Origin: Psychrobacter frigidicola
GTDB lineage: Bacteria; Pseudomonadota; Gammaproteobacteria; Pseudomonadales; Moraxellaceae
Direction: 5' to 3'
Length of the DNA stretch: 64,000 nt
NCBI RefSeq assembly: GCF_007997305.1
Contig: NZ_VORZ01000001.1
Span: forward strand, 496,001 to 560,000
This document shows positions 1-10,818 of the stretch, piece by piece. The notes under the pieces are model-generated. The model had not been told where the DNA came from. It worked only from the letters and a program-made list of their open reading frames with translations, and did not search any database. Both the position numbers and the translations under genes were made by a program. Within the stretch, counting starts at the first letter, position 1; each line of letters opens with the position of its first letter.

Positions 1-501
1 CTTAAATTTACGTGGCAAAAAGGCAAACTCAGGATGAAAAGTTGACCACTGACGAATAATCTCGCAATAAGGACGCGGATCCGCAATCTCGCTTTGATGA
101 ATGCCTGCATACGGGTCGGTAGTAGTATTACGAATACAGTTGCCTGACGTTTGAATGGCGTGCATCTGTACCGTGGCAAGCTCCGCCAAGATATCAGGCA
201 CGTCTTCTAGTTTCGGCCAGTTCAGCTGAATATTGGTACGCGTGGTGAAATGCCCGTAGCCTTTATCATATTTGCGCGTGATTTCAGCCAATTTGCGCAA
301 CTGATAGCTGGCAAGTAGGCCGTAAGGAATGGCGATACGCAGCATAGGCGCATAACGCTGGATATAAAGTCCATTCTGCAAACGCAGCGGCAAAAACTGC
401 TCTTCTGGCAGTGAGCCATCCAAAAATCGCTCAGTCTGGTCGCGAAATTGGGCAACCCGTTCCTCAACCAAGGCTTGGTCGGCATAGTTATATTGATACA
501 T
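1..501 (-). CDS. cysI: Nitrite/sulfite reductase hemoprotein, N-terminal part (cut by window edge)
   Basis: The gene starts with ATG at 501-499 and runs off the left edge, so only about 167 N-terminal residues are visible. The product begins MYQYNYADQALVEERVAQF and contains NGLYIQRYAPMLRIAIPYGL and ATVQMHAIQTSGNCIRN. These are typical of the Pseudomonas-type assimilatory sulfite reductase hemoprotein, the ferredoxin-like substrate-binding half of the nitrite/sulfite reductase family. The family reduces sulfite to sulfide using siroheme and a 4Fe-4S cluster; the cluster cysteines lie outside the window. It is divergent from sat at 967, which catalyses the first step of sulfate assimilation, so a shared role in cysteine synthesis is likely. 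A nitrite reductase of the same superfamily is less likely given this neighbourhood. Confidence 0.85.
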   Translation of the reverse strand, partial: MYQYNYADQALVEERVAQFRDQTERFLDGSLPEEQFLPLRLQNGLYIQRYAPMLRIAIPYGLLASYQLRKLAEITRKYDKGYGHFTTRTNIQLNWPKLEDVPDILAELATVQMHAIQTSGNCIRNTTTDPYAGIHQSEIADPRPYCEIIRQWSTFHPEFAFLPRKFK

Positions 502-9133: not shown

Positions 9134-9325
9134 ATGTACGTATGTATCTGCAATAACGTGAAAGATAAGCAAATCCAAGCAGCGATTGCCTCTGGTGTTG
9201 ATACCCTTGATGGTTTAAAAGATACGCTCGACGTTGCTACTTGCTGTGGTTGTTGTGAGCCGATGGTCAATGACTATCTACATGAGTATCATGCCAAGCT
9301 TGATGTATTGGCTTTCGCAGTCTAA
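9134..9325 (+). CDS. bfd: Bacterioferritin-associated ferredoxin
   Basis: This 63-residue [2Fe-2S] protein donates electrons to the haem of bacterioferritin so that stored ferric iron is reduced and released. Four cluster cysteines are placed as in the family: CxC at residues 4 and 6, and CxxC at 38 and 41 within a CCGCC stretch. The length matches E. coli Bfd. A GGAG-type ribosome binding site (TAGGAG) precedes the ATG. Two bacterioferritin genes follow on the same strand, and a candidate Fur box lies upstream. This is the expected mobilisation partner for the haem-binding Bfr subunit. Confidence 0.93.
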   Translation: MYVCICNNVKDKQIQAAIASGVDTLDGLKDTLDVATCCGCCEPMVNDYLHEYHAKLDVLAFAV

Positions 9326-9416: not shown

Positions 9417-9691
9417 TGAACTTTCCTATCTAAGTTTATTCAAAATCATTCTAGCTAACTATGGTTATCAATTAGCACCTTATTCTTAGTTCCTAACATT
9501 ACAAGCCATATTTTGCCTATGTGTTACACTATCTGTCTAAAGTTATAAGACACTTTGTGGTGTCTGATTTTTACTAATTGGTCTTACCAACCAGTTTGCC
9601 CCTAGTATCATTATTATTAGCATTGTTGTTATTAGCTTTAAGTTAACCGTGATGATAATAGGGTAATCTGAAGAATAGAGGAGTACACGTT
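9417..9691. other. AT-rich intergenic region before the bacterioferritin pair
   Basis: No gene is seen. This probably carries the promoter of the two bfr genes. I could not find a second clear Fur box or a confident sigma-70 promoter. Confidence 0.3.
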
Positions 9692-10180
9692 ATGATAGGC
9701 AGCCAAAAAGTTATTGATTATTTAAACTTCTTACTTGGTGGTGAGCTGGCCGCTCGTGACCAGTATTTCATTCATTCTGAGATGTATGCTGAATGGTATT
9801 ATGGCAGGTTGTATGACCGTATTAGCCATGAAATGCAGGATGAAACCTTGCACGCACAGGACATTATCCGCCGTATTTTGATGCTTGGCGGCAGGCCAAA
9901 CATGAGTGTCAATGATATTCATATTGGAAGTACTGTCCCTGAGATGTTGCAGCTCGATCTTGATCTTGAATATGAGGTAAGACAGCATCTTAAAGACGGT
10001 ATTGCCATATGTGAAGAAGAGCACGACTATGTCACTCGCGAGATGCTCGTGGTTCAGCTAAGAGACACTGAAGAAGATCATGCGCATTGGCTTGAGCAGC
10101 AGCTGCGTCTTATTGAGATGATCGGTCTACCGAATTACCTACAAAGCCAGATGGCTGAAGTACCGCCCAATCTTGTCTAA
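9692..10180 (+). CDS. Bacterioferritin subunit with ferroxidase centre but no haem-ligand Met52
   Basis: This 162-residue four-helix-bundle subunit forms part of the 24-mer iron-storage shell. Compared with E. coli Bfr, the dinuclear ferroxidase ligands are all present: Glu18, Glu51, His54, Glu93 (E. coli 94), Glu127 and His130. The axial haem ligand Met52 is replaced by Thr52, so this subunit should oxidise iron but not bind inter-subunit haem. The next gene shows the opposite pattern. Such two-subunit bacterioferritins are known in Neisseria, Pseudomonas and Magnetospirillum. A GAGG ribosome binding site precedes the ATG. The 68-base gap to the second gene suggests one transcript. Confidence 0.93.
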   Translation: MIGSQKVIDYLNFLLGGELAARDQYFIHSEMYAEWYYGRLYDRISHEMQDETLHAQDIIRRILMLGGRPNMSVNDIHIGSTVPEMLQLDLDLEYEVRQHLKDGIAICEEEHDYVTREMLVVQLRDTEEDHAHWLEQQLRLIEMIGLPNYLQSQMAEVPPNLV

Positions 10181-10248
10181 TTGTCTAAGACAGTAGCGGT
10201 ATAAAATCAGTCATATGAGCATAAAGGTAATAAACAGGGAGAGAAAGT

Positions 10249-10731
10249 ATGAAAGGTGATAAAGACGTTATTCGTGCGCTAAATAAGGTGCTTGGTCAGT
10301 CATTAATTGCGATCAATCAGTATTTTTTGCATGCACGCATCGCACGGTATTGGGGGCTTGAGTTACTTAATGACTCACTATACCATCAGTCTATTGCAGA
10401 GATGAAGTGGTCTGACGATCTCATTGAGCGCATTTTATTGTTAGAAGGTCTACCAAACTTACAGGATTTGGGTAAAGTTCTGGTTGGTGAAGATGTACCC
10501 GAGATTATTGACAGTAACCTGCGCTTAGAGAAGCAAAAGTTCGCTATCATTACAGAGGCCATCACCTTATGTGAAGAGCGTCATGATTACGTATCGCGCC
10601 AGCTGTTGGTAACACTCAAAGATGGTAACGAAGAGTATGAAGACTGGTTAGAGACTCAAGAAGACCTTATTAAAGAAGTTGGAATACAGAATTATATCCA
10701 GTCACAGATGGGTGATGATAAAGCGCCTTAA
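10249..10731 (+). CDS. bfr: Bacterioferritin subunit with haem-ligand Met52 but degenerate ferroxidase centre
   Basis: This 160-residue bacterioferritin begins MKGDKDVIRALNKVLG, close to the E. coli start. It keeps Met52, the haem ligand, and Glu51 and Glu94. Four ferroxidase ligands are changed: Glu18 to Ser, His54 to Trp, Glu127 to Asn and His130 to Tyr. It should therefore bind haem and receive electrons from Bfd but not oxidise iron by itself. With the preceding subunit it probably forms mixed 24-mers. An AGGGAGA ribosome binding site precedes the start. A very strong terminator follows. Confidence 0.94.
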   Translation: MKGDKDVIRALNKVLGQSLIAINQYFLHARIARYWGLELLNDSLYHQSIAEMKWSDDLIERILLLEGLPNLQDLGKVLVGEDVPEIIDSNLRLEKQKFAIITEAITLCEERHDYVSRQLLVTLKDGNEEYEDWLETQEDLIKEVGIQNYIQSQMGDDKAP

Positions 10732-10769: not shown

Positions 10770-10818
10770 GCCAGCATGCTCTCTTTTCTATTATAAAGGA
10801 GAGCATGCTGGCTTTTTT
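10770..10818 (+). terminator. Strong rho-independent terminator after the bfr pair
   Basis: A perfect 14-bp stem (arms 10770-10783 and 10799-10812) followed by six T. It also separates the bfr genes from the convergent MFS gene. Confidence 0.95.

Follow-up and report, generated by a model that had tools for sequence, protein, structure and literature searches.

The closest solved case to the gene pair described here is the bacterioferritin (Bfr) of Acinetobacter baumannii (PDB 9BTS), in which Ftn dimers carry the ferroxidase sites and haem-containing Bfr dimers carry none (PMC13136788, PMC12120770). Our pair resembles it in several respects: it comes from the same family, Moraxellaceae, and consists of an FtnA-type haem-free ferroxidase subunit and a Met52 subunit devoid of the site, with Bfd as a partner. 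The residues at the dead site differ, being H18, Q51, H54, V94, E127 and Y130 in A. baumannii Bfr (PMC13136788) and S18, E51, W54, E94, N127 and Y130 in our Met52 subunit. That paper calls three of the six A. baumannii ligands conserved; only two of the residues it lists match.

In Pseudomonas aeruginosa, Bfd binds only dimers of the haem-binding BfrB (PMC8945002, section 3.5). BfrB keeps all six ferroxidase ligands (PMC12120770), so that, unlike in our pair, only the haem function is split there. SoBfr12 of Shewanella oneidensis (PDB 9IIG) contains 12 + 12 subunits and no heterodimers, and its division of labour has been shown by mutagenesis (PMC12120770). Like our pair, it stems from a tandem operon of a haem-free and a haem-binding subunit, each present as homodimers; the gene order is the reverse of that in Psychrobacter, and SoBfr2 has lost fewer ligands than our Met52 subunit, having Asp51 and Val94 (PMC12120770). 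Magnetospirillum gryphiswaldense has the operon in the same order as ours, with Bfr1 as the ferroxidase and Bfr2 as the haem subunit, a division likewise demonstrated by mutagenesis; Bfr1 assembles poorly alone, and the ligand losses of Bfr2 (E18Q, H54A and H131M, as introduced in a mutant) are different from those found here (PMC6529640). A likeness to vertebrate H/L ferritin, where one chain oxidises and the other does not, has also been drawn (PMC6529640, PMC12120770). PDB entry 9h1u holds a heterooligomeric bacterioferritin with three chain kinds (8, 12 and 4 copies), the third of which is very divergent, with 28% identity to our Met52 subunit. The vertebrate L chain belongs to a different family from bacterioferritin and is not known to bind axial-Met haem.

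We analysed a stretch of 64,000 nucleotides from Psychrobacter frigidicola (contig NZ_VORZ01000001.1, positions 496,001 to 560,000), referred to as the window, which contains two adjacent bacterioferritin genes, here called alpha and beta. An earlier note on this DNA had named Neisseria, Pseudomonas and Magnetospirillum as precedents for the pair. Magnetospirillum is indeed a true split (PMC6529640), whereas the haem subunit of the Pseudomonas-like family f19 keeps all six ligands in seven of eight genomes read; the Neisseria precedent is available to us at second hand, through citing papers. A. baumannii, from the same family, is the better precedent. The kind is thus already known, with a direct precedent in Moraxellaceae, and the pair is a clear but ordinary new example. 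No title on a Psychrobacter or Moraxella pair was among the literature matches listed, from a search whose coverage leaves out most subscription journals, and no test of any Psychrobacter protein of this kind was found.

The gene pair and the residues of its subunits

The first gene of the locus, bfd (9134..9325, forward strand, as are all features given here), encodes a bacterioferritin-associated [2Fe-2S] ferredoxin of 63 aa with Cys4, 6, 38 and 41, and its product matches the Bfd chains 6e6r and 4e6k of the PDB at E about 1e-5. Its residues 37-41 (9242-9256) read CCGCC, compared with QCGKC in P. aeruginosa Bfd, which gives two extra cysteines; by pattern match, the motif occurs in 63 of 77 upstream Bfd copies of the Moraxellaceae tandem group. 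A weak terminator-like hairpin lies between bfd and alpha (9548..9565), from which the two are likely separate transcription units; the consensus scan that detected it found two sites, versus 0.9 expected in shuffles. In the 130 nt upstream of alpha, no regulatory motif was apparent by eye. Alpha (9692..10180) encodes a haem-free, ferroxidase-bearing subunit of FtnA type with 162 aa. It is followed by a spacer of 68 nt (10181..10248) in which the same scan found no terminator-like site and which contains, as judged by eye, a stretch resembling a ribosome-binding site, AGGGAGAG, ahead of beta. Beta (10249..10731) encodes a haem-binding (Met52), ferroxidase-dead subunit of 160 aa, and a strong rho-independent terminator of 18 pairs and then T6 lies 3' of it (10770..10812, consensus scan).

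Both proteins belong to the bacterioferritin family, with TIGR00754 scores of 149.4 bits for alpha and 199.4 bits for beta above the NCBIfam cut-off of 125.55, and they are 39% identical to each other. P0001 has no hits in NCBIfam other than TIGR00754 and, weakly, a DpsA model. Against a Bfr profile, four Ftn-type rows reach 13-27 bits. Among 80 named relatives of beta, the best 20 all come from Psychrobacter and are 80-92% identical to it. The idea that the genome (2.85 Mb) encodes another Bfr with full function was considered and rejected because the PF00210 matches there are the pair and two Dps-like proteins; the profile of the E. coli FtnA-type non-haem ferritin, NF007638, has no match in this genome.

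In the di-iron site of Bfr, E18 and H54 bind iron 1, E94 and H130 bind iron 2, and E51 and E127 are the bridges (PMC13136788). Alpha has E18, E51, H54, E93, E127 and H130, and Thr at position 52. Compared with beta, it carries two compensating one-residue indels, a deletion near 72-76 and an insertion in helix D before E127; hence the fourth ligand is residue 93 of the alpha protein, the equivalent of E94. Its haem pocket has R22 and D23 at the positions that are I22 and N23 in the Met52 subunits; Arg22 and Asp23 form salt bridges in P. aeruginosa FtnA (PMC12120770, section 2.6). Beta retains the axial haem ligand Met52, which alpha lacks, and only two of the six ligands, E51 and E94. Based on the ligand assignment in Bfr (PMC13136788), beta has neither terminal ligand of iron 1 (S18, W54), and it also lacks a bridge (N127) and one of the two residues that bind iron 2 (Y130). 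Taken together, the two subunits thus have a complete di-iron site, through alpha, and Met52, through beta.

AlphaFold2 monomer models, built with alignments of 40, reached a mean pLDDT of 94.5 for alpha and 94.5 for beta, and both predicted models have the five-helix fold of Bfr subunits (Z 26.3 and 27.6 to solved chains of the family). Judged by first and last aligned residues only, the alpha model superimposes on P. aeruginosa FtnA 3r2h with residues 1..154 on 1..154 (Z 26.3, rmsd 0.6) and the beta model on P. aeruginosa BfrB 4tob with 1..156 on 1..156 (Z 27.6, rmsd 0.7). The possibility that the ligands are shifted yet present was rejected on these alignments, the sole shift being E93 of alpha for E94. 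Predicted helix D has 32 residues in alpha (113-144) and 31 in beta (114-144), which fits the one-residue insertion.

For alpha, the fold search also returned Shewanella SoBfr1 9iig_A (Z 26.0), A. baumannii Ftn 9bts_a (Z 25.9) and many Met52 Bfrs at Z 25-26, tied or nearly tied with each other and with FtnA. Its nearest kin are set by sequence and not by fold: P. aeruginosa FtnA (3r2h/9bxp; about 60% identity) and A. baumannii Ftn score 203-207 bits, with Ftn at 203, versus 163 for SoBfr1, which is of the other haem-free subtype that keeps a residue near 75. The best solved relative of beta is BfrB, with Shewanella SoBfr2 9iig_M (Z 27.5) tied by structure and other Bfrs, among them A. baumannii 9bts_A (Z 26.8), also tied. 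No E. coli-type FtnA is named among the 50 rows listed in either fold search, which counts neither for nor against a resemblance.

Conservation and the proposed division of labour

The tandem pair is present in 59 of 60 Psychrobacter genomes searched. In the remaining one, G034, alpha stands alone, and its downstream end is 84 bases from the contig end. Writing the residues at positions 18, 51, 54, 94, 127 and 130 as a string, alpha has T52 with EEHEEH in 60/60 Psychrobacter entries read (20 + 40 from two sets that may overlap), and beta reads SEWENY in 57 and TEWENY in two of the 59 pairs. A haem-free subunit with a complete site thus accompanies a Met52 subunit with an incomplete one in 59/59 Psychrobacter pairs read, which excludes chance for the ligand pattern. 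The same tandem split is found in Moraxella (5/5) and in the genera coded g10 (7/7 read, two with SEWENH) and g7 (6/6, AEWESH). Upstream of the pair, bfd is co-directional in 77 of 79 genomes of this tandem group; for one of the two misses only 908 bases of upstream sequence were at hand. The alpha-beta spacer measures 9-129 nt in 76/77 tandem-group genomes and 403 nt in G078.

Elsewhere in the Moraxellaceae the arrangement varies. A match to the Bfr family was obtained in 52 of 61 genomes. The nine with no bacterioferritin match include G105 of g10; the other seven g10 genomes have the pair. In the Acinetobacter-like genera g15 and g9 the genes lie dispersed, in contrast to the tandem genes of Psychrobacter, and the Met52 subunit has decayed differently in 12/12 genomes read, its ligands being HQHVEY or QQHAEY in nine of them; the g15 alpha scores 310 bits over 154 residues with A. 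baumannii Ftn 9bts_a. The genomes read from genera g2, g5, g12 and g13 contain just one Met52 Bfr, with five or six ligands, and so do three of four in g11; the fourth (G069) combines an intact Met52 subunit with an alpha encoded elsewhere, in a dispersed layout.

Among 66 distinct beta sequences from Psychrobacter, Moraxella, g7 and g10, W54 is invariant, and the haem-pocket residues I22, N23, F26 and I49 are kept in all. We take E81 and E85 to be Bfd-docking positions, from the titles of PDB entries of BfrB mutants; L68, P69, N70 and Q72 have been named as such for P. aeruginosa (PMC12261321). All six are present in 66/66 betas. In the 68 distinct alpha sequences from the same genera, position 68 is mostly T or K (Arg in the alpha of the window), Q72 occurs in 10/68, E is absent from the four commonest residues at 81 and there is no residue at 76; P69 (68/68) and often E85 (51/68) are shared with beta. 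Since the set of six is kept in beta and not in alpha, the docking surface for Bfd would lie on the haem subunit only. R22 and D23 are found in 68/68 alphas.

Very probably, the two subunits build a heteropolymeric 24-mer, with alpha as the iron-oxidising component and beta as the haem carrier that accepts electrons from Bfd. The residues, conservation, gene layout, predicted fold and kinship that underlie this reading were computed here; co-assembly, homodimer pairing and the routes of iron and electrons are taken over from solved relatives. The alpha and beta genes would form an operon, and alpha-alpha and beta-beta homodimers would co-assemble into the cage. The di-iron sites of alpha (E18, E51, H54, E93, E127, H130) would oxidise Fe2+, which would be stored as mineral. 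Haem would bind only between two beta chains, through two Met52, and Bfd from the neighbouring gene would dock on the beta-beta dimers, so that electrons arriving via haem could reduce the core, with Fe2+ being released. The di-iron site of beta would be dead, with the invariant Trp at the His position, and the haem pocket of alpha would be altered at R22/D23, the salt-bridge positions of P. aeruginosa FtnA.

The earlier note had read alpha as having all six ferroxidase ligands and Thr for Met52, and beta as keeping Met52 with Ser18, Trp54, Asn127 and Tyr130 at ferroxidase positions; both the coordinates and the residues are borne out. Its view that each subunit has lost one function is backed by residues, conservation, models and solved relatives. 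It had further proposed that a working store needs both subunits, which is likely for haem- and Bfd-driven release; on loading, the solved relatives disagree. Recombinant P. aeruginosa FtnA alone forms 24-mers with a mineral core (PMC8945002), while the haem-free Bfr1 alone fails to load iron in Magnetospirillum (PMC6529640) and in Shewanella (PMC12120770).

Given this behaviour of P. aeruginosa FtnA, alpha may also form homopolymers. In the extreme case, the genes would specify two separate homopolymers, alpha as a plain iron store and beta as a haem protein with another role. The Magnetospirillum haem subunit does form cages alone (PMC6529640), in line with such an arrangement, as is the FtnA core. 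Yet mixed protein occurs in A. baumannii, P. aeruginosa, Shewanella and Magnetospirillum (papers cited above), the tandem genes are closely spaced and co-retained across the genus, and beta alone would bind haem and Bfd and oxidise no iron, which makes separate homopolymers quite unlikely. A variant of the heteropolymer explanation, overlapping with it in probability, deserves more weight although it is still doubtful: a facultative heteropolymer, in which alpha loads and stores alone when beta is scarce, the composition varies with oxygen or iron, and both subunits are needed only for Bfd-driven release. Consistent with it, alpha is of the FtnA lineage and nearest in sequence to P. aeruginosa FtnA and A. 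baumannii Ftn, and the composition of P. aeruginosa Bfr varies with O2 (PMC8945002). The P. aeruginosa-like genes, however, lie apart, as in its close relative G417, and could be tuned separately, whereas in Psychrobacter they are tandem, and the scan of the 68 nt that divide them here gave no terminator-like site.

Within the mixed cage that we favour, beta need not be devoid of metal binding. E51 and E94 are kept in 66/66 distinct sequences while positions 18, 54, 127 and 130 have changed, and their retention could reflect a residual single-metal role. That these two residues make up another working metal site, such as one for a single iron or for nucleation, is improbable: in other lineages with an alpha partner the lost sets differ, as the Acinetobacter-like subunits (HQHVEY) have lost 51 and 94 and the Marinomonas one (EKNEQQ) has lost 51, which looks like decay, and Trp54 occupies a metal-ligand position.

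Two lineages of bacterioferritin subunits

We surveyed 458 Bfr-like ORFs from 308 loci; the counts of ORF rows include repeated genomes. From D113 to W133 there are 22 residues in 187/187 haem-free rows and 21 in 268 of 271 Met52 rows. The three deviating Met52 rows are one truncated sequence and two with 22 residues that fall in the haem-free lineage (G226, G352). The six ligands are kept in all haem-free rows, except for one that is cut before residue 18. The two unusual rows come from genus g111 (G226, locus L250; G352, locus L252), where a subunit of the haem-free lineage has Met52 as well as six ferroxidase ligands and its Met52 partner reads SAEENR. This loading subunit may have regained or kept haem binding.

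For the trees, 195 rows of 140 aa or more were chosen to represent each combination of family, genus, type and ligand set once, and 171 of them entered a quick tree. A tree of 86 rows was computed with ligand, haem-pocket and Bfd-interface columns removed and five long-branch rows excluded by name. In the latter, a single branch (100/99; each of the 200 bootstrap trees was examined, and bootstraps had not settled) separates the haem-free from the Met52 subunits, and the quick tree has the same branch with an SH-aLRT of 98. The alpha of the window falls in the FtnA-type subclade in both trees. A member of the FtnA lineage is thus encoded in a tandem pair, so that gene arrangement does not mark origin. 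In terms of a published typing of hetero-bacterioferritins (PMC12120770), the pair has the tandem genes of the TD type and, at a distance of 68 nt, not the dispersed genes of the DSD type, yet alpha is of the DSD-type FtnA lineage.

Tandem duplication has been proposed for tandem pairs (PMC12120770), and the two genes are adjacent and homologous, so a recent local duplication with one function lost per copy had to be weighed. It is highly improbable here. The 100/99 branch separates the alphas of the Moraxella-Psychrobacter group from its betas, and all 187 haem-free rows share the one-residue insertion in helix D. Forcing alpha and beta together costs 72.9 log units, and a duplication within this group is rejected at AU p = 0.015. 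A single clade of tandem-type haem-free (with a residue near 75) and ferroxidase-lost Met52 subunits, that is, one older duplication common to tandem-type pairs, is rejected no more than marginally (AU p = 0.0476); both test groups were named after the free tree had been seen.

With ferritins as an outgroup (NF007638 matches below the cut-off of that family), the sampled Met52 subunits form one group (100/100, bootstraps not settled). The data do not reject a rooting that joins FtnA-type subunits with Ftn (p = 0.352, and p = 0.85 on a quick tree of lower quality), and they do not reject one haem-free clade either (p = 0.362). As both rootings fit, the Met52 grouping stands and the order of states does not follow from it.

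With slightly less than even confidence, we propose that the hetero-bacterioferritins of Pseudomonadota derive from one old split, between a haem-free lineage with the helix-D insertion and a Met52 lineage, and not from repeated tandem duplications, with layout secondary and site decay in Met52 subunits that coexist with alpha acting as a ratchet. Under an old split, both gene order and tandem or dispersed layout would be secondary, the FtnA-type alphas of Moraxellaceae being tandem in Psychrobacter and Moraxella or dispersed in Acinetobacter-like genera. The routes of decay would also differ by lineage, through Trp54 in the Psychrobacter group and through Gln51/Val94 in Acinetobacter.

Ferroxidase loss and the haem-free partner

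We define loss as two or more ferroxidase ligands gone in the Met52 subunit and count it per genome. The first partner count excludes proteins below 120 aa, genomes in which no Met52 subunit was read and named loci with no alpha in the stretch. Loss occurs in 155 of 178 genomes with alpha and, among 150 genomes for which the searches yielded no alpha, in one. The latter figure combines 0/56 in a first set and 1/94 in a second one of 98 genomes, read from 100 further stretches, in which G280, G198 (two frames) and G270 (cut) were set aside and G291 had already been counted; G540 was left out. Where alpha is tandem, loss is seen in 142/145 genomes, 77 of the 142 being from Psychrobacter, Moraxella, g7 or g10, and where it is dispersed, in 13/33. 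Counted by genus label, with named and coded labels apart, the figures are 51/54 for tandem and 3/16 for dispersed, g62 showing both states. Changes of one ligand (E127T, once E127A) were found in 2 of 33 genomes with a dispersed alpha and 18 of 150 with none found. Ferroxidase loss in the Met52 subunit thus hardly occurs outside the genomes that have an alpha partner. The ligands lost differ between lineages. On the tree used for an independent-pairs test, loss amounts to three changes, and the test had two pairs on supported branches and hence no power; with so few independent events, the association is descriptive.

The exception, G422 (L415, family f221), has a Met52 Bfr with K18, Q51, Y54, E94, A127 and H130 (KQYEAH); no haem-free partner was found, the only other PF00210 match in this genome being a Dps-like protein. 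Single Met52 Bfrs often have Thr at Glu127 (EEHETH, 24 ORF rows). This string was read at L061, L062, L069 and other Oxalobacteraceae loci and in genera g2, g40, g253 and others; five alpha-less genomes of the first set have it, and 12 more of the second. Further instances accompany a dispersed alpha (G519, G537), and G352 holds it in an additional copy. In G545 (L292), a member of the Pseudomonas-like family f19 with dispersed genes, the Met52 subunit reads EADEQH, possibly a recent ferroxidase loss, while the other seven f19 genomes read keep six ligands. A haem-free and a Met52-type subunit adjoin in G280 (1.4 Mb; L335, L417, L420), both with short or broken frames, and possibly represent a decaying pair.

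The pair extends the A. baumannii arrangement to a branch of Moraxellaceae with tandem genes, in which the functions are separated residue by residue. The comparison with other genomes suggests that the published scheme which assigns hetero-bacterioferritins to two origins by gene arrangement (PMC12120770) needs revision. If the ratchet holds true, decay of the Met52 site once alpha is present would commit the cell to a cage of two parts; G422, whose site has decayed although no alpha was found, indicates that the rule is not absolute. The comparison also offers a test case for how two-part protein complexes turn obligatory.
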